DNA from: Bacillota bacterium | GTDB lineage: Bacteria > Bacillota > Ch66 > Ch109 | DNA length: 64,000 bases | Assembly: GCA_013178275.1 (NCBI GenBank) | Contig: JABLWZ010000012.1 | Coordinates: 124,001 to 188,000, forward strand | Direction: 5' to 3' | Shown: one piece after another, positions 3,902-48,349 of the stretch | How the letters are laid out: every line of letters starts with the position of its first letter | Numbering within the stretch: the first letter of the stretch is position 1 | Translations under genes and position numbers: made by a program | Notes under the pieces: model-generated | Database searches by the model: none | What the model was told of the DNA's origin: nothing | The model's input: only the letters and a program-made list of their open reading frames with translations

Positions 3902-6040
3902 TCAACCCGGGGGATTAAACGTCACGGCGACGATGGTCCCGGGCTCTACCACGGTCCCCGGTCTGGGGTTCTGCTCCGCCGCTATCCCGCTGCCGTTCGC
4001 CTGCAGGCGGAGCCCCAGCGCTCCCAGGTTCAATCCCGCCTCCCGGATGGTCTGCCCGGTGACGTCAGGCACCGTCACCTTTTGGCCGTTATCACCCTTA
4101 ATCTCCTTCGGACCGATATACAGCACTATCTTGGACCCGCTGGCTACCAGCGCGTCCTCGGTCGGGGTCTGCCCCCACACCTTCTCGCCCTGACCTTCCA
4201 GGATCACGCCCAGTCCCACCTGCTGGAGGGCCCTCTCGGCTTCGGTCACGCTGAGGGTTACCACCTTCGGGACCGCCACCTGGTTCTTCTGAGAGTCCTG
4301 TCCGCCAGGCTGCGACTGGGTTATCATCGAGGTAGGCTGGTAATCGTAAGGCACCTGCATGTAACGCAGGGTGTCCCTCACCACTTCCTTGAACACCGGG
4401 GCGGACACCCAGCCCCCATAGAAGGGAAGGCCCTGGGGAGCGTCCACCATTACCAGGCAGGCCACCTTTGGGTTGTCGGCGGGCGCGAACCCGATAAACG
4501 AGGCCAGGTACTCATCGGGGAGGTACCCGCCGCCAGGGGCTATCTTCTGAGCCGTGCCGGTCTTGCCCGCCACGTGGTACCCGTCGATCTGGGCGTTGCT
4601 GCCGCTCCCTTTGGCGACGACGTTCTCGAGTATCGCCCTCATCTCCGCCGAGGTCTGGGGCGAGATGGACTGCCGCATTACCTCCGGCTGAAACTCCTTG
4701 ATCACGCTGCCGTCAGGGCCGAGGACCTGCTTGGCCAGGTGCGGCTTGATGTAGTTTCCCCCGTTGGCCACGGTACACATAGCTGTCATCAGCTGTATGG
4801 GGGTCAGGGCGTTGGCCTGTCCTATGGACATGGTGGCCAGGTCGATCTGCTTGACGTTCTTCTGGTTGACCAGGATCCCGGTGGCCTCGCCGGGGAGGTC
4901 GATGCCCGTCTTCTCCCCCATCCCGAAGGCCCGCAGGTACTTGTAGAAAACCTCCTGCCCCATCCGCATCCCCACGGTGGCGTGCCCTATATTGCAGGAG
5001 ACGGCGACCGCATCGGTGAAGGTCTGGCTGCCGTGGGCCCGGTTGCCCGAGCAGTGGATGGTGTGCTTGCCCACGGTCAGCCCGCCCGAGCAGTAGACCG
5101 GGGTCTGGGGGGTGACCACTCCCTCGTCGAGCGCCCCCGAGGCCGTGACTATCTTGAAGATGGACCCCGGCTCATAGGCGCTGCTGACCGCCATGTTGCG
5201 GCGGTTCTCGGCCGGGAATTCACTGTAGGAGTTGGGATTGAAGTTGGGGCGGGAGGCCATGGCCAGGACCTCTCCCGTGTTAGGGTCCATGACGATGATG
5301 GTCGCGGCTTTCGGCTGGCGGGCCTTGAACACCTTATCCAGTTCCCGCTCCGCGATATACTGGATGGTTTCATCGATGGTCAGGACCAGGCTGTTGCCGT
5401 CCTGGGGCGGCACATACATATGGGTCGCCTGGGGTATCTTGCGCCCCAGGGCGTCGTACTCGATCATTATCCTCCCCGGGACACCGCTCAGTTCCTGGTT
5501 ATAGGCATAGTCTATACCCTCCAGGCCGGTGTTGTCTATCCCGGATATCCCCAGCACGTGGCAGGCCAGGAAGTCTTTGGGGTAGAAACGCTGGCTCTTT
5601 TCGGCGAAATCGATGCCCGGCAACTGGAGGCTTTTTATCTCCTGCGCCTTTTCGGGGGGAACCTTTAATTTTATCCATTCGTGACGGGATTTTTTGATGA
5701 GCTTTTCGTAGATGTCGTTTTCATCCATCCCCAGGATCGCGGCCAGTTTCTGGGCTATCTCCCTCTCCCGGCCCGACTGCTGCACCTCGGGAGGGATGGC
5801 GTACAGGGCGTCGGAACTGATGCTGACCGCCAGTTCCTGACGGTTGCGGTCGTAAATGGTGCCACGCTTGGACTCCACGGCTACGTCGCGCAGCCGGTTG
5901 TCAAGCGCCTTCTGGGTCAAAAAGTCTCCCTGCACGAACTGTATCCAGGCCACCCTGACCGCCAGGACGAGTAGGCCTGCCCCCAGGATAACGAAGACCC
6001 ACTTTATTCTTTTTCGCACCACAGCAGATGAGTAACTCAA
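3902..6040 (-). CDS. PASTA-domain penicillin-binding protein 2 (SpoVD/FtsI type transpeptidase)
   Basis: Class B peptidoglycan transpeptidase for septal or spore cortex synthesis, anchored by one N-terminal membrane helix (residues 11-32). After the PBP dimerisation domain comes the transpeptidase domain: SxxK as SIFK near residue 295, SCN near 350 and KTGTAQK near 495. Two PASTA domains follow (about 590-645 and 655-710). The 712-aa length and the two PASTA units fit SpoVD or PbpB of Firmicutes, and the position between ftsL and murE fits both. I cannot tell whether it is vegetative or sporulation-specific, since no second copy is visible. The start is TTG after AAAGGGGAACTGCC. Confidence 0.93.
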   Translation of the reverse strand: MSYSSAVVRKRIKWVFVILGAGLLVLAVRVAWIQFVQGDFLTQKALDNRLRDVAVESKRGTIYDRNRQELAVSISSDALYAIPPEVQQSGREREIAQKLAAILGMDENDIYEKLIKKSRHEWIKLKVPPEKAQEIKSLQLPGIDFAEKSQRFYPKDFLACHVLGISGIDNTGLEGIDYAYNQELSGVPGRIMIEYDALGRKIPQATHMYVPPQDGNSLVLTIDETIQYIAERELDKVFKARQPKAATIIVMDPNTGEVLAMASRPNFNPNSYSEFPAENRRNMAVSSAYEPGSIFKIVTASGALDEGVVTPQTPVYCSGGLTVGKHTIHCSGNRAHGSQTFTDAVAVSCNIGHATVGMRMGQEVFYKYLRAFGMGEKTGIDLPGEATGILVNQKNVKQIDLATMSIGQANALTPIQLMTAMCTVANGGNYIKPHLAKQVLGPDGSVIKEFQPEVMRQSISPQTSAEMRAILENVVAKGSGSNAQIDGYHVAGKTGTAQKIAPGGGYLPDEYLASFIGFAPADNPKVACLVMVDAPQGLPFYGGWVSAPVFKEVVRDTLRYMQVPYDYQPTSMITQSQPGGQDSQKNQVAVPKVVTLSVTEAERALQQVGLGVILEGQGEKVWGQTPTEDALVASGSKIVLYIGPKEIKGDNGQKVTVPDVTGQTIREAGLNLGALGLRLQANGSGIAAEQNPRPGTVVEPGTIVAVTFNPPG

Positions 6041-6057
6041 GGCAGTTCCCCTTTGCT

Positions 6058-6561
6058 TTAATCATACACCGCCGCCTTGGTCTTCATCCCCTGAGCTGCA
6101 GCCTTCTGAGTTGCCGGTTTTTGGGTCGTGGGCTTTTGGTTGGTAGCCCCCCGCGATGGTGAGGTCCCGGAAGCGGCCCCCTGACCGGTGGTCCCCTGTG
6201 TACTGGCTACTACCTGCTTGGCCGCTGTGGTGTTGGCTTCCGCAGACGTATTGGAGGGGCTGGAGGAGGTGCCCGGGTTTTGGGCAGCAACCAAAATTCC
6301 CGCATCTTCCGGCCGCTTCATGTTCAACCTGCTTACGGCGATGCTCTCGATGCGTTCGAGAGATTTACCCTTGGCGATGGTCAACTCCAACTGCTTATTC
6401 TCTTTTTCGAGCTGCGCCAGTTCTTTTTCCAGCTGTACCTGACGGTATCCCAGCTGGGTGGGGTAGATATAGGTCAAAGCGACAAAGACGCCCACCATGA
6501 ACAGGGCCACGATCACAAGCAGTCCCTTCGCGGTCCGGTTTCTGATCCTCTTCCTTTCCAC
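6058..6561 (-). CDS. ftsL: FtsL-like septum formation protein (N-terminus possibly longer)
   Basis: Small bitopic divisome protein. The conventional GTG start gives 167 aa: a short basic cytoplasmic segment, one membrane helix (residues 12-34), a coiled coil rich in Leu, Glu and Lys (35-75), then the segment SRLNMKRPEDAGI typical of FtsL/DivIC proteins. A low-complexity tail rich in Thr, Gln and Ala follows. Position between rsmH and the PBP gene supports ftsL. The frame stays open upstream and encodes a plausible cytoplasmic tail (VLAQEKYFSPDQLNKE). In that extension the only codon with a well-placed Shine-Dalgarno is ATA at 6657, so the true start may be non-canonical. Confidence 0.85.
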   Translation of the reverse strand: MERKRIRNRTAKGLLVIVALFMVGVFVALTYIYPTQLGYRQVQLEKELAQLEKENKQLELTIAKGKSLERIESIAVSRLNMKRPEDAGILVAAQNPGTSSSPSNTSAEANTTAAKQVVASTQGTTGQGAASGTSPSRGATNQKPTTQKPATQKAAAQGMKTKAAVYD

Positions 6562-6704
6562 GCGGCTGTCCTTTGGCGGCGCCGGCCGGACATCGACCGT
6601 TTCCTTATTTAATTGGTCGGGGGAAAAATATTTTTCCTGCGCTAATACAAAGCTTATTTCCCCTCTCCCCTTCCTAGAACCTTGATCTGGAACCGACCCG
6701 AAAG

Positions 6705-41328: not shown

Positions 41329-42759
41329 TTACTTAAGGGTTACCAGTCGGGTCCCGCTGTAGTAAAACGCCAGTATCTGGTTAAAACCGAAGCCCTGCTT
41401 GGCCATCCCGTAGGCCCCCCACTGGGACATGCCCACCCCGTGACCCCAGCCGTGCCCCTTGATCGTGATGGTCTTGGGCAAAACCTTGATCGAACCGGTT
41501 CCAGCGGCCCCCTGGACCGATAAAGCCCCCTGGCCGCTGCTGATGGTCCTGGTCGTCCCGCCACCTCCCAGCACCGACAGGCTGCGTTCACGGCCGCTCA
41601 CAGTGGCGACCAGCCCATTCACTCCCATCAAGCTGTAAGTGGCGTCGGTCTCCAGGTCGAAGAACCGCCCCATAAACTGGTCGGCTCCGACCTTCTGGAA
41701 TCCCGGGTTGTAGAGGCATCCGAACTGGCTTCCGGTTTTTTCCGTAGTATTGCCTTTATCATCGGTAATAATAACCTTTTCCACCCGTCCCGCGGGGTTC
41801 TTGATCAGCTTTATCGCCTCGATATGCCCGATGCTGGCCCCGTCGGCATTCAGGAGTTCCCTGAGCCCCATCCGGCCGGACGAGTCCCGGCCCTCCAAAA
41901 CCGTCGTCAGCCCCCAGTCGTAAAGACCATAGCCTTTGCTGTACGGGTCTGGTTTGGCTTTCAGGTAGTAAAGGTCAGCTCCAAAAACGTTTACGTTGTC
42001 CTCCAGGTACCCGCCGCTGTTCGAGTGGAAAAGCGTCACCGCCATCTCCCCCAGGTTATCCTGCAGGACCATCCCTTTCGTCTCGTTCACCGCCCGGGTG
42101 CAGTTGGCCCCCTCACAGTCGTAGCCCCCGTACACCTGGCAGTTGGTCCCGCTGCAGAGGTCGTACCCCTCATCGGAGTGCTTGTTCAGGGTGCGGAGGG
42201 TGTAGGTGCGGGCGGCGACCGCCTGCGCCTTCAGCGCCTCCAGCGGCCATCCTTCGCTGACCTCACGGGGCAGCACCCCGTAGAGGTATTCCTCCAGCAT
42301 CAACTGGTTGATCGCGACCAGCCCGGTGCCGCCGCTGTTTGCCCTTACCTCCATCGAACCCCGGTACCGCTTCCCATCGAGTTCCACCAGCGAATCGGAG
42401 GACTTCCGCTCCATGACCACCGGCCCCTTGAAGCTGCCCTTTTCCTTCATGGAGCCGCCCGCGGAGGCGCCGAAAACCTTTAACTTACCTGACTCCATCT
42501 TTACCCGGCAGGTGTCGCCGCAGTTTATCGAGGAGATGATCGCCTTGCCGGTCGCCTTGTCCAGCAGCCGGTACCCCCCCTGTGACGCCTCGAGGTCGAT
42601 AATAGTAGAGTCCCCCGTGACTATCCCGATGCGGACGAACGACGGGATGGCGGCGGCAGCCATCCGCTGGTTGGAACTGAAGGTAAAGACCCAGACCACC
42701 GCCATCGCCAGCAGGACAATAACCGACAAAAATTTTTTTCGCCAGAGGTTTCCTGACAT
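41329..42759 (-). CDS. SpoIID/LytB-domain protein
   Basis: 476 aa, N-terminal membrane anchor (about 8-28), a middle amidase-enhancer-like part, and the SpoIID lytic transglycosylase domain: LEEYLYGVLPREVSEGWPLEALKAQAVAARTY near residue 170 (the catalytic Glu is in this segment) and GWGHGVGMSQWGAYGMA near the C-terminus. SpoIID degrades glycan strands during engulfment, but vegetative LytB-like paralogs exist, so the sporulation role is likely rather than sure. ATG start after GGAGGGCTG. It heads the queA-tgt-yajC run. Confidence 0.9.
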   Translation of the reverse strand: MSGNLWRKKFLSVIVLLAMAVVWVFTFSSNQRMAAAAIPSFVRIGIVTGDSTIIDLEASQGGYRLLDKATGKAIISSINCGDTCRVKMESGKLKVFGASAGGSMKEKGSFKGPVVMERKSSDSLVELDGKRYRGSMEVRANSGGTGLVAINQLMLEEYLYGVLPREVSEGWPLEALKAQAVAARTYTLRTLNKHSDEGYDLCSGTNCQVYGGYDCEGANCTRAVNETKGMVLQDNLGEMAVTLFHSNSGGYLEDNVNVFGADLYYLKAKPDPYSKGYGLYDWGLTTVLEGRDSSGRMGLRELLNADGASIGHIEAIKLIKNPAGRVEKVIITDDKGNTTEKTGSQFGCLYNPGFQKVGADQFMGRFFDLETDATYSLMGVNGLVATVSGRERSLSVLGGGGTTRTISSGQGALSVQGAAGTGSIKVLPKTITIKGHGWGHGVGMSQWGAYGMAKQGFGFNQILAFYYSGTRLVTLK

Positions 42760-43010: not shown

Positions 43011-44060
43011 ATGAGCATCACTCGGAGAGCCGCCAGCCTCTGGATAAACCAGGGCAAGGACATTTTAAGGAAGATACTTTCCACCCCCCTGCCGCCCGCC
43101 ATCATGCTCTGGGGTCCCCCGGGGATAGGAAAGTCGGCCATGATAAGGCAGATCGCCCAGGAAAAAGGCTGGGGCGTCGTCGATCTGCGGATGCTGCTGC
43201 TCAACCCCGTCGACCTCCGCGGCATCCCGGTGCCCGACCGCGAGAGGCGGCGGGCCGACTGGCTCCCGGCTGATTTCCTGCCCGACACCGATCGCGACGG
43301 TCCAGAAGGCATCCTCCTCCTGGACGAGATAAACGCCGCTCCCCCGGCGGTCCAGGCCAGCGCCTACCAGCTGCTGCTGGACCGCCGGAGCGGCGAGTAC
43401 CTGCTGCCCCCCGGCTGGCGGATCGTGGCCGCCGGCAACCGGGTGACCGACCGCGGGGTGATAAACCGCATGCCCGCTCCCCTGGCCAACCGCATGCTGC
43501 ACTTCGAGCTGATCTGCGAACTCGGCGACTGGAAGACCTGGGCGATGGTCAGCGGCATCCACCCGCTGGTCGTTTCCTTCCTGAACTTCCGCCCCGAACT
43601 GCTCTACAAGTTCCCCGAGGGGGCGGCGGAGATAAGGGCTTTCCCCTCGCCCCGCAGCTGGGAGTTCACCTCGCGCCTGATCGACCTGTTCGACGACTGG
43701 GATATGCTGTTCTACGCGGTGGCGGGCGCGGTCGGCGAGGGGGCCGCGTTCGAGTTCATCGGTTTCGCCCGCCAGGCGCAGGAGCTGCCCGACCCCGAGT
43801 CCATCCTGGGCGGGGAGGAGTTCGATCCCCCCGACCGTCCCGACCTGATCTACGCCCTCTGCAGCGGGCTGGTGAACCGCCTCCAGGCCAACCCCGGTCC
43901 CGAAAGGGTGGCCAGGTTCCTCGACTGCCTGCTGCAGATGCCCTCGGAGTTCCAGGTCATGACCATGAAAGACGCCTGGGCCTCGGGACTGATAGACCAG
44001 ATCACCGCCCACCCCGCCTACCTCGAATGGGCGCGGGCCAACCAGGCGGTGGTGCTGTAA
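43011..44060 (+). CDS. MoxR-like AAA ATPase
   Basis: 349 aa. Walker A GPPGIGKSAMI near residue 36, Walker B ILLLDEINAAP near 105, sensor-1 IVAAGNRVTDRG and the arginine-finger segment MPAPLANRMLHFEL are intact. The C-terminal half is helical and family-specific. Proteins of this type act as chaperones that load or remodel a partner with a VWA domain, and such a gene follows at 44539. The ATG start follows GGAGGAGTT. Spacing to the next gene is unusually large (478 bp) and holds an inverted-repeat element. Confidence 0.88.
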   Translation: MSITRRAASLWINQGKDILRKILSTPLPPAIMLWGPPGIGKSAMIRQIAQEKGWGVVDLRMLLLNPVDLRGIPVPDRERRRADWLPADFLPDTDRDGPEGILLLDEINAAPPAVQASAYQLLLDRRSGEYLLPPGWRIVAAGNRVTDRGVINRMPAPLANRMLHFELICELGDWKTWAMVSGIHPLVVSFLNFRPELLYKFPEGAAEIRAFPSPRSWEFTSRLIDLFDDWDMLFYAVAGAVGEGAAFEFIGFARQAQELPDPESILGGEEFDPPDRPDLIYALCSGLVNRLQANPGPERVARFLDCLLQMPSEFQVMTMKDAWASGLIDQITAHPAYLEWARANQAVVL

Positions 44061-44117
44061 AAAACTTGAATAAGTCTGTATTTTAGTCGGGGGAAGAACC
44101 TTGAAATGGAAAAAAGC

Positions 44118-44505
44118 GCGGCGCATGCTACATTTCAACCAGCTCTTACCCTCACATTAATCCCCCGCGAAATCCGGTACTTCGGTGGAACTATAAGCTG
44201 CTCCGTCAGAATCGGGGATCTTTCAACATCACTTCCTTGTGAGCTCGAAAAGCGATTTCACCTGATAACTTGTAATTTCTTTTTTGTCTCTCCTACAACA
44301 TTCTAAGCAATGGATATAGTGATGTTATCTAAAAAAGGACGTTAACTGGCTTTATGAGTATTACCCGAAATAATTCACGGGGTTATACCTCCATGTCCGC
44401 TCACCCCGATTCTTCCTCCGCTTATCGCTTAGTTCCACCATGAAGCGGGGGGATTGTCGCGGGGTCTTAATGTTCAGCGGCTGTATGGAAGGTATATAGC
44501 GCCGC
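44118..44505. mobile_element. 388-bp element with long imperfect inverted repeats (MITE-like or transposon relic)
   Basis: The left arm (44118 to about 44215, read on minus) and right arm (about 44402-44505, read on plus) align in order through CCCCGATTCT, GCTTA, AGTTCCACC, GAAG, GGATT, TCGCGGGG, TTAATGT, GCTG and GCGCCGC. The middle 180 bp is AT-rich and holds no gene I recognise. I see no clear target duplication. It fills most of the gap between the AAA and VWA genes. Confidence 0.6.
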
Positions 44506-44538
44506 TGTGGTGCATGTTAATAAAAGAAAGGGACCACC

Positions 44539-45708
44539 ATGGACCGCTCCCCTGATAGCAAAAAAACATCCGCTACCTCCTTCCTCCCGGTCCTGACCTG
44601 GGCGCGGACCCACCTGATTATAAACTACCCCTTCTTCGGGCTGCTCGCTCTCTACCTGCCCATCAAGCTCGACCTCGACGTCCAGACCGCGCTGACCGAC
44701 GGGAAGTACGTGACGGTCAACCCCTCCTGGATCGACGGGGTGGTCAGGCGCGAGGGACGCGAGGTGATAGCGGGGCTGATCGCCCACGAGGTGATGCACA
44801 TGGCCCTGCAGCACCTGTGGCGGCGGGGCACCCGGGTGGTGAAGGTGTGGAACAACGCCTGCGACTACGCGGTGAACTCCATCCTGGCGGGGGCGGGCAT
44901 CAAGCTCCCCGCCGGCGCCCTTTTGAACTACGAGTACAGCGGCCTGACCGCCGAAGAGATCTACAGCCGGCTGCAAAAGAAGTCGGACCAGCCCTCCCCG
45001 CCCCAGCCCTGGGGAGAGCACCAGCACTGGGACGAGGCGGAGAAGGACCCGGTGGAGGCGGCCGAGCAGCAGCGGGAGTGGGAGATGCGGATTGCCCGCG
45101 CTGCCGAGTCGTCCCGCCAGGCCGGGAAGTTCCCCGGCGGCCTGGAACGGCTGGTCCGGGAGTGGCTCTACCCCCGGATCGACTGGCGTCAGGCGCTGGC
45201 CGTGTTCCTCCAGCCCACCCGGAAGGACTACACCTTTATCCCGCCCGACCGCCGCTACCTGAGCCAGGAATACGACGGTATGGTGATGCCCGACTTCGGG
45301 CAGGTCGGCCTGGAGGAGGTCGTCATAGCGGTGGACACCTCGGGTTCCGTCAGCGGGATGGAACTGGACGCCTTCCTGGGCGAGGCGGCCGGCATCCTCG
45401 AAGCCTTCCCCGAGATGCGCGGGATAATGGTGAGCTGCGACGCGGCGGTCGCGGGGTGGCACGAACTGGAGCCGGGCGAGGCCTGGCCCAGCCCCCGGAT
45501 GATCGGCGGCGGCGGGACCGACTTCCGCCCCGTGTTCGATGAGATCGAGCGGCGGGACATACACCCCGCGGCGGTGGTGTTCCTCACCGACGGTGCGGGT
45601 CAGTTCCCGGCCGAGCCCCCGCCCTACCCGGTGCTCTGGGTGATTGTGAACAACCATCGGCTGGAGGTCCCCTTCGGACTGAAGATAGACCTTGAGGTAA
45701 AGGAATAA
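44539..45708 (+). CDS. DUF2201-type metallopeptidase-like/VWA-domain protein
   Basis: 389 aa with two parts. The N-terminal part (about 1-150) has the zinc-peptidase motif HEVMH in LIAHEVMHMALQHLW and NNACDYAVN, whose Asp could be a third ligand. A charged linker follows, then a VWA-like domain (about 265-389) with the MIDAS motif DTSGS in VIAVDTSGSVSG, GGGTDFRP and LTDGAG. The combination is that of DUF2201 proteins, which usually travel with a MoxR-type AAA ATPase, as here. Activity and substrate are unknown. ATG start after AAAGGGACCACC. Confidence 0.88.
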   Translation: MDRSPDSKKTSATSFLPVLTWARTHLIINYPFFGLLALYLPIKLDLDVQTALTDGKYVTVNPSWIDGVVRREGREVIAGLIAHEVMHMALQHLWRRGTRVVKVWNNACDYAVNSILAGAGIKLPAGALLNYEYSGLTAEEIYSRLQKKSDQPSPPQPWGEHQHWDEAEKDPVEAAEQQREWEMRIARAAESSRQAGKFPGGLERLVREWLYPRIDWRQALAVFLQPTRKDYTFIPPDRRYLSQEYDGMVMPDFGQVGLEEVVIAVDTSGSVSGMELDAFLGEAAGILEAFPEMRGIMVSCDAAVAGWHELEPGEAWPSPRMIGGGGTDFRPVFDEIERRDIHPAAVVFLTDGAGQFPAEPPPYPVLWVIVNNHRLEVPFGLKIDLEVKE

Positions 45709-45731
45709 GCAGGTGACAGGAGGTATCCCCG

Positions 45732-46409
45732 GTGCAGGCATACATCCCTTATCTGTCCACAGGAGAGATCACCCGCAAGGGGACTGAAGAGGTCGAGGTG
45801 GTGGTGGATAGAGAAACCAGCCGCATCACCATGTTCCAGGCGGCCTGCCTGGGCGGGATATTCGGCTGGGGCGGCATCGAGATCGAGGAGGGCCGGCAGG
45901 AGGACTTCCTGAAGATAGTGCGGCAGCCCTGGCCGCAGTTCCTGGTGACCGTGGCCCGCCACCTGGTCCTGCAGCCCGAGGACCCGGCGGACGAGTACGC
46001 GGACAGCCGGCTCTACCGGTACGTCCTGCCCCGGGAGCCGCACCTTTCGCTCTCGTCGCACCCCTTCCCCCGGGACTTCGTGGAAAACCCCGACTGGCCC
46101 GGGGACACCGACACCTCCGCGATCTCGAAGCTGCACGCGGCAGCCTACTGCAGCCTTTGCGGCGCCTATACCTCGGATGAGACCAGGCAGTGGCTGCACA
46201 GCCACGCCCGGCTGATCGTGAAGTGCCTGCAGAACCTGCGCCACGCCCGGCTGTTCGTTCCTCACAGCCGCTACCTGACCAAGCATTCCTACCTGCACGA
46301 TATCTCGATACTCCTGGGGATTCTGATCCGCGGCGCGGGAGAAGAGTTTATGGTCACCATGACCCTGTGCGGGGGGCAGCAGTTCCTGCATGAGGTGGGA
46401 CTGGTCTAA
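45732..46409 (+). CDS. Unknown protein, third gene of the AAA/VWA operon
   Basis: 225 aa, no signal peptide or membrane helix seen. The only eye-catching motif is CSLCGAYTSDETRQWL near residue 140 plus scattered His and Cys (one in VKCLQNL, one in LCGGQQ). I recognise no family. The GTG start has a strong AGGAGG 8 bases upstream and lies 23 bp after the VWA gene, so it is part of that operon and may be the substrate or cofactor of the AAA/VWA pair. It ends convergent with the FAD oxidoreductase gene, overlapping by 4 bp. Confidence 0.8.
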   Translation: MQAYIPYLSTGEITRKGTEEVEVVVDRETSRITMFQAACLGGIFGWGGIEIEEGRQEDFLKIVRQPWPQFLVTVARHLVLQPEDPADEYADSRLYRYVLPREPHLSLSSHPFPRDFVENPDWPGDTDTSAISKLHAAAYCSLCGAYTSDETRQWLHSHARLIVKCLQNLRHARLFVPHSRYLTKHSYLHDISILLGILIRGAGEEFMVTMTLCGGQQFLHEVGLV

Positions 46410-47551
46410 AAGATGCACCCCTCGACCGCTTCCAGCCGGCTGACGAACCTGGCGGGAGAGAGAGAACCGATGTCCAGGCTGGTCCTTCCGTCCACAGCCA
46501 TCTCCGCCAGCAGCCGTCCGACCGCCGGGGCGTGCATGAAGCCGTGTCCGCTGAAGCCGCCGGCCCAGAAGAGCCCCGGCACCTGCGGGTGTTCCCCCAG
46601 GATGGCGTTGTAGTCGGGGGACATCGAGCGCAGGCCGACGTAGCCGTGGGAGATACCCGCCCTCTCGATGGCCGGCAGGCGGGCGGTCGCCGCCTCGATC
46701 AGCACACCCAGCTTAGCCCAGTCCACCGCGGTGTTCCACTGGGGGAGGCACTCCTTGTCAGTCCCCCCGGTGTAAAAACGCCCGCCGTGGGAGCGATGCA
46801 GGTACCAGCCGGTGTCCAGGTCGACGGTCAGCGGCACCGGGTAGTCCAGGCTCGGAATGCTGTCCACCAGGAACACCTGCCTGGGGTGGACCGTGACCGG
46901 GAGGTCGATGCCCACCATCCGGCCCACCTCGGCCGACCAGGGGCCCGCGGCCGAAAAGAGCAGCGGGGTCGAAAAACCATGCCTCCGGGTCCTGACCACG
47001 AAGGTCCCACCGCGCAGCGGACTTATCGAAGAGACCGGCTCGTCGGTCAGGAGGACCGTCTCCACCCGCCCCAGCAGGCGGACCAGTCCCTGCACCACAC
47101 CATCGGGACTGGCCTGGGCGTCGACGGGACAGAAGGTTCCCCCCGCCAGGTCGTCGGTGCGCAGCGAGGGGAAGATGTCCCCCACCCGCCCCGGGTGGAC
47201 CAGCTCGCTGGGAACGTCCAGGGCCCGCTGCATCTCCACGTTGGCCCGGAACTCCTCCAGCTTCGAGGCCTTTGCGGTCAGAAACAGGTACCCGCTCTGC
47301 TCGAACTCCACCGCCGCCCCGGTCTCCTCCTCCAGGTGCGAAAAGAACGGCAGGCTCATCTGGGTCAGCCGGATATTGACCGGGGAGGTGAACTGGTGGC
47401 GTATCCCTCCGGTACAGCGGGAGGTCTCCCCCCAGCCCGCGCTCAGCTCCCTCTCCAGCACCACCGTGCGGATCCCTTTCATCGACAGGTGGCGGGCAAT
47501 GGACAGCCCGACTACCCCGGCCCCGATAACAACCGCGTCAGCGGTCTCCAT
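46406..47551 (-). CDS. FAD-dependent amino acid/sarcosine oxidase-like oxidoreductase (DAO family)
   Basis: About 381 aa. The N-terminal Rossmann motif is VIGAGVVGLSIARHL; the C-terminal FAD motif is PQVPGLFWAGGFSGHGFMHAP, typical of the sarcosine oxidase beta/glycine oxidase group, as is GIRHQF. In anaerobes such proteins may act as dehydrogenases on N-methyl or D-amino acids. No subunit partners are adjacent, so the substrate is open. The second ATG (47551) is better placed behind AGGGAGG than the first. Confidence 0.85.
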   Translation of the reverse strand: METADAVVIGAGVVGLSIARHLSMKGIRTVVLERELSAGWGETSRCTGGIRHQFTSPVNIRLTQMSLPFFSHLEEETGAAVEFEQSGYLFLTAKASKLEEFRANVEMQRALDVPSELVHPGRVGDIFPSLRTDDLAGGTFCPVDAQASPDGVVQGLVRLLGRVETVLLTDEPVSSISPLRGGTFVVRTRRHGFSTPLLFSAAGPWSAEVGRMVGIDLPVTVHPRQVFLVDSIPSLDYPVPLTVDLDTGWYLHRSHGGRFYTGGTDKECLPQWNTAVDWAKLGVLIEAATARLPAIERAGISHGYVGLRSMSPDYNAILGEHPQVPGLFWAGGFSGHGFMHAPAVGRLLAEMAVDGRTSLDIGSLSPARFVSRLEAVEGCIF

Positions 47552-47563
47552 ACACATACCTCC

Positions 47564-47788
47564 CTAACGGCGGGCGATCCAGTTCAGTATCAGGGTTAGC
47601 ACCACGCTGACGATCAGCATGCTGACCAGGGGGAAGTACACCGTAAAGTTGCCCTTCTGAAACAGAAAATCCCCCGGCAGCCGCCCCAGGGGAAAACCAC
47701 GTCCCAGCCCCAGCATTATCAGGCCGACGGCCACCAGCACGATTCCCGCGATAATGATCAGCTTGGCCATCTGTCCCCATTCACCCAT
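47564..47788 (-). CDS. DUF2905 small membrane protein
   Basis: 74 aa, two membrane helices (about 9-26 and 46-70) flanking the family motif LGRLPGDFLFQKGNFTVYFP. Function unknown. It is commonly found after ruvB in this bacterial group; here it follows queH by 6 bp. ATG start with AAGGAG 9 bases upstream inside queH. Confidence 0.88.
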   Translation of the reverse strand: MGEWGQMAKLIIIAGIVLVAVGLIMLGLGRGFPLGRLPGDFLFQKGNFTVYFPLVSMLIVSVVLTLILNWIARR

Positions 47789-47794
47789 CTGGGA

Positions 47795-48349
47795 TTACTC
47801 CTTCCGCTGCCTTTTGTCCGCCCTCGGGGCGTAGCGGTCCCGTTCGCTGTAGATGCAGCCGCAGTAGGTCTGGCGGTAGAGGCCCATCGCCTTCGAACGC
47901 TCCGTCCCCTCCCGGTACCCGGGCCGGTAGTCCTCGTAGTAGAAAGGCACCCCCACCTCGGCCGCCACCTGCTCCCCCACCTCCCTGATCATAGCGTGTT
48001 TCTGGCGCGGGCTGACCAGCAGGGTGGTGGTGAATCCATCGTACGCGCCTTCCCGGGCGGCCTCGGCGGTCTTCCTCAGCCGCATCTCGTAGCAGAAGCG
48101 GCAGCGGATATCCTCCCGGTTGCATACCTGGCGCAGGTATCCCTCCAGCTCGTAGCCGGGGCTCCCGACCATCTCCACGCCGTACTCCCGGGCCAGCCGC
48201 CGGGCGGAATCCTCCCGCTCCCGGTACTCCCGGTAGGGGTGGATGTTGGGGTTGTAAAAAAAGCCGCTCAGCTCGTGGCCTTCGGCCTGCAGGCGGGGAA
48301 CCGGGTAAGCGGCGCAGGGGCCGCAGCAGATGTGGACCAGCAGCCGCAT
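47795..48349 (-). CDS. queH: QueH, epoxyqueuosine reductase
   Basis: 184 aa, non-orthologous replacement of QueG; reduces epoxyqueuosine in tRNA with an FeS cluster. Ligands visible are the N-terminal CCGPC, CRFCYEMR near residue 100 and YCGCIYS near 160. NPNIHPYREYRER is a family motif. ATG start after GGGAGGGAGACAG. With queA and tgt nearby it completes the late queuosine pathway. Confidence 0.93.
   Translation of the reverse strand: MRLLVHICCGPCAAYPVPRLQAEGHELSGFFYNPNIHPYREYREREDSARRLAREYGVEMVGSPGYELEGYLRQVCNREDIRCRFCYEMRLRKTAEAAREGAYDGFTTTLLVSPRQKHAMIREVGEQVAAEVGVPFYYEDYRPGYREGTERSKAMGLYRQTYCGCIYSERDRYAPRADKRQRKE

Follow-up and report, generated by a model that had tools for sequence, protein, structure and literature searches.

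The window, by which we mean the whole 64,000-nucleotide stretch of the Bacillota bacterium chromosome that was analysed, holds three consecutive plus-strand genes exactly where the sequence-only reading had placed them. The first (43011..44060) encodes a 349-aa AAA+ ATPase homologous to gp24 of phage N4; the second (44539..45708) a 389-aa protein, homologous to N4 gp25, that joins a putative zincin-type metallopeptidase domain to a VWA domain; and the third (45732..46409) a 225-aa orphan protein with a GTG start. The AAA and VWA genes are separated by a 478-nt gap of about 47% GC (44061..44538), in which lies a copy of a genome-specific interspersed element (44117..44508, plus strand). A gene for an FAD-dependent oxidoreductase of the DAO family (46406..47557, minus strand) converges on the orphan gene. 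Conserved minus-strand genes bound the region: a SpoIID homologue on the left (41329..42759), a DUF2905 protein on the right (47564..47788) and, next to the latter, the QueH epoxyqueuosine reductase (47795..48349).

Coding potential was checked because long chance reading frames are frequent in this GC-rich window and a 264-aa antisense frame overlaps the third gene. Bits per codon come to 0.48 for the AAA gene and 0.50 for each of the other two, values like those of native genes, and their GC3 of 0.87-0.90 (0.87 for the third gene) is likewise that of native genes; the antisense frames of the three score from -0.09 to -0.16. All three are thus real genes with native codon usage. That the third might be a spurious reading frame is ruled out by its codon usage (0.50 bits per codon, against -0.15 for its antisense frame).

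The AAA protein passes the Pfam AAA_5 model (27.3 bits against a cut-off of 22; 4.1e-06) but scores only 19.3 bits against a cut-off of 27 with the MoxR model AAA_3, so the MoxR label first given to it is loose, although the two models are related; the bpMoxR model lies far below its cut-off (13.1 bits against 27). It matches phrog_1297 of PHROGs at 8e-91 and shows 30% identity to N4 gp24 (2e-42). Walker A (GPPGIGKS) and Walker B (ILLLDEI) are intact, as had been read, and so are the sensor-1 and arginine-finger positions.

The VWA protein contains DUF2201_N (residues 20-242; 139.8 bits against a cut-off of 23.2, 1.7e-40) followed by DUF2201 (residues 261-385; 86.1 bits against 26.4, 2.8e-24); with PF13203 and PF09967 both above their curated cut-offs in N-to-C order, it is a DUF2201 metallopeptidase-VWA protein. 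It matches phrog_1314 at 3e-86 and is 28% identical to N4 gp25 (6e-38), and its AF2 model (pLDDT 83.6) matches phage metallopeptidase-VWA proteins (8e-26) as well as solved VWA domains. The HExxH motif is present as HEVMH (H83, E84 and H87) together with the invariant H92, and the MIDAS is complete (DTSGS, T327 and D351). Across 43 homologues there is no variation at H83, H87, H92, D109 or the MIDAS residues, and next to none at E84; the motif residues of the AAA and VWA proteins mostly occupy invariant or nearly invariant alignment columns. With Walker, HExxH and MIDAS motifs all intact, the pair looks active, as the sequence-only reading had expected. Many phage records carry members of phrog_1314 under the label 'HNH endonuclease' (e.g. 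NC_023719.1 gp576), a label at odds with their zincin and VWA domains and, it would seem, a misannotation that has propagated.

The motifs bear on the view that the pair is an ATP-dependent protease, whose AAA+ ring unfolds substrates for the zincin domain of the VWA protein to cut, with the third protein as adaptor or substrate. Such an enzyme would accord with the HExxHxxxxH motif and its invariant H83, H87 and H92, and peptidolytic processing has been put forward for a phage pair (PMC7824862). The HExxH glutamate is kept in 116 of 128 homologues, which can be taken as support, and is lost in about 9%; because it is kept in only these 116, several losses of peptidase function are probable, and peptidase activity may be dispensable. 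As the losses are independent and include a close Firmicute relative (locus L032), and zincin activity itself is putative, we consider the protease reading unlikely. At L032 (genome G085, 5812-6630) a related AAA-VWA pair has housekeeping genes on both sides and is preceded by a gene for a 272-aa pentapeptide-repeat protein; its VWA protein lacks the HExxH glutamate (HTVLH).

Relatives of the VWA gene occur in 584 phage records and 107 plasmid records, and relatives of the AAA gene in 837 phage records. A scan of viral contigs with the single VWA protein as query returned no match, whereas an alignment query did, giving at least 576 stretches with candidate VWA relatives. Among sampled genomes of the phylum, 29 of 399 carry a relative; none of the three sampled relatives from the same family or order does. 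An AAA gene lies nearby in 90 of 100 loci holding the VWA gene, and in 87 of those 90 it is upstream on the same strand. The window pair has this order too, a homologous AAA gene upstream of a homologous VWA gene on one strand, as in the phage arrangement of phrog_1297 and phrog_1314. Spacing is below 100 nt in only 20 loci, and the neighbours of the pair vary between lineages. Other genes often intervene, from one of two conserved families: one of about 290 aa, with 36 sequences, and one of 220 aa that has an Nmad5 match, with 47. Phage pairs in the viral contigs L101-L180 often carry members of both; the two families are absent from the window locus, as they are from many other loci, and so do not define the pair. 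Directly downstream of the pair in several proteobacterial genomes, mostly of sulphur oxidisers (L245, L254, L255, L256 and L282), a conserved 372-387-aa protein is encoded, which may resemble DsrS.

Because the N4 core genes and a jumbo-phage pair have already been described, the AAA-VWA machine is one of a known kind, a poorly understood family of phages, plasmids and bacteria, of which the window holds an intact, lineage-specific copy. In the literature we found an experimentally shown function for no member of this AAA-VWA (DUF2201) family. That the locus is an anti-phage defence module, as its patchy spread (29 of 399 phylum genomes), gain on an island and fast-changing partner genes might suggest, seems highly improbable: phages themselves commonly carry the family, and PADLOC gives only weak P-loop matches to the AAA protein and none to the VWA or third protein.

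In the closest relatives the gene order is queH-DUF2905-spoIID-queA, and DUF2905 and spoIID lie only 49 nt (G003) or 105 nt (G002) apart. The same slot in the window holds about 4.8 kb, namely the minus-strand FAD oxidoreductase gene and the three plus-strand genes. Comparison with close relatives thus bears out an interruption between spoIID and DUF2905, as had been proposed, but its extent was understated, since the oxidoreductase gene (46406-47557), missing from the relatives' slot, belongs to the insert too. A slot of 4.8 kb against 49-105 nt supports a lineage-specific gain, also anticipated in the sequence-only reading; base composition and codon usage of the insert are native, so a transfer leaves no mark in the letters themselves and the gain is not recent.

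In a tree of concatenated AAA and VWA proteins the window pair is sister to that of genome G274 (SH-aLRT 96), both falling within a group whose rows come from Firmicutes, phage G and other genome contigs. About 5 kb from the G274 pair are tyrosine-integrase-like and excisionase-like genes, with RadC-like and repressor-like genes near, all named from their sequences by eye; the window insert has no integrase, no phage gene and no phage structural genes. Our best reading is that an ancestor of the lineage acquired the block on mobile DNA and retained it. The region could alternatively be what is left of a decayed phage or integrative element, with no present function, a view to which the integrase-bearing surroundings of the sister locus and the repeat element that landed between the AAA and VWA genes lend something. 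Three intact reading frames, native codon usage, intact motifs and the lack of phage structural genes in the insert argue against it, and we regard decay as distinctly unlikely.

The three genes had been read as a single operon. This is probable for the VWA and third genes, which are 23 nt apart, but is not confirmed for the AAA and VWA genes, between which lie 478 nt with a 392-nt interspersed repeat; with a gap of this size their co-transcription is in doubt, and the two may not be co-transcribed. The element, 392 nt here (44117-44508), is about 305 nt elsewhere in the genome, the extra sequence of this copy lying in the loop. About nine full or partial copies exist in its own genome (at L088, L089, L091, L092, L094, L095 and L097, with partial ones at L090 and L093), and a DNA search of 100 further genomes from the phylum detected none. 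Eight of the copies share a fold, a single long hairpin with 15 pairs changed on both sides; shuffles give 8.3 ± 1.8 such compensatory pairs (0 of 500 reach 15), and sliding gives 0-7. The ends are GCGGCG/CGCCGC, this copy reading (C)GCGGCG...CGCCGCTG, and no target duplication was seen by eye. The AAA-VWA gap matches nothing in Rfam up to an E value of 1. The element is a candidate MITE-like or structured RNA element.

The third gene starts 23 nt past the VWA stop codon with an AGGAGG ribosome site between, the tight spacing and strong site noted from the start, and the two genes are probably co-transcribed. Its product has one CxxC (YCSLC) and belongs to no Pfam or NCBIfam family; PADLOC gives none either, and the best matches in PHROGs (0.09 over 23 residues) and the PDB (1.3) are not relatives. 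At pairwise sensitivity and in sampled genomes, no relative was found in the genomes of 101 relatives or in 399 genomes of the phylum, none in phages, plasmids, viral contigs or genome contigs, nor any among the neighbours of AAA-VWA pairs or in 32 genomes holding AAA relatives. Weak genome matches (E 0.003-0.4) were short, several with internal stops, and were taken as chance; a profile comparison with clustered viral and bacterial pair neighbours reached at best 19% probability over 15 residues and was rejected. No alignment could be built, and the AF2 model from the single sequence, with a pLDDT of 42, is uninformative. Most probably the gene is an orphan confined to this lineage.

This bears on the central proposal of the sequence-only reading, a three-gene system in which the 225-aa protein is the dedicated client that the AAA-VWA machine activates or remodels; that reading had itself named the lack of co-occurrence of the three genes in other genomes as telling against it. 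Because the third gene has no relative in any search, beside AAA-VWA loci or elsewhere in the collections covered, the neighbourhood survey found no such co-occurrence, and the neighbours of the pair vary by lineage. The short gap of 23 nt, the strong ribosome site, the native codon usage of a coding third gene and the action of NorQ/NorD-type machines on specific clients (PMC9976466) weigh on the other side; on balance a dedicated client is improbable. We would be similarly doubtful of a scheme in which the pair came from a mobile element and the orphan newly evolved as client, adaptor or inhibitor in place of the phage partner genes, the third component being swapped between lineages. The third protein may be a partner of the pair, an inhibitor, a client or a mere passenger.

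We therefore favour, with a probability of roughly 0.6, a chromosomal member of the phage and plasmid family of AAA+ and metallopeptidase-VWA proteins (the kind of N4 gp24/gp25), brought in on mobile DNA and kept, with the third gene as a lineage-specific orphan; it is best read as a chaperone or protease pair domesticated from a mobile element, to which an orphan gene is attached as passenger or partner. In NorQ/NorD the VWA domain has been modelled as the plug of an AAA+ hexamer, with MIDAS residues binding the client (PMC9976466). By analogy, the AAA+ protein of the window would form a hexamer, the VWA domain would dock on its pore and hold a client through the MIDAS metal, and ATP hydrolysis would remodel that client, which the N-terminal zincin domain of the VWA protein might clip or hold. 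Because this N-terminal domain is zincin-like, the pair could remodel its client, cleave it, or do both. If the pair does bind or cut the downstream orphan, the latter would be the first candidate client for a widespread family; if it does neither, the locus is just an ordinary insertion specific to its lineage. Stable bacterial copies, lying outside any phage genome, could allow proteins like N4 gp24 and gp25 to be studied in a cell that undergoes no infection cycle.

The VWA partners in NorQ/NorD, RavA/ViaA and CbbQ/CbbO carry other N-terminal domains and are not known to have a DUF2201_N zincin. The likeness to these systems lies in an AAA+ ATPase with a MIDAS-bearing VWA partner encoded nearby (PMC9976466). 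The bpMoxR ternary and VMAP systems (PMC7159879) also combine an AAA+ protein, a VWA protein and a third protein, but the window AAA protein scores 13.1 against 27 bits with the bpMoxR model, and the third gene of the window does not encode any component known from the ternary systems. Closer is the MoxR-vWA chaperone of group 2.2 jumbo phages, for which a role in virion assembly is proposed and whose vWA is fused to a metallopeptidase (PMC7824862): the layout is the same, an AAA+ protein adjoining a vWA protein with an N-terminal metallopeptidase domain, whereas the window pair sits on a bacterial chromosome in an insert without phage structural genes. In N4-like phages gp24 (AAA) and gp25 (vWFA) are core genes of unknown function (PMC4193335, PMC2784036). 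The AAA-VWA gap in N4 is 167 nt, compared with 478 nt in the window, a dCTP deaminase gene follows gp25 where the orphan follows here, identity is only 28-30% and the window pair is chromosomal; the two pairs are nonetheless homologous over nearly their full length, in the same order and of similar sizes.
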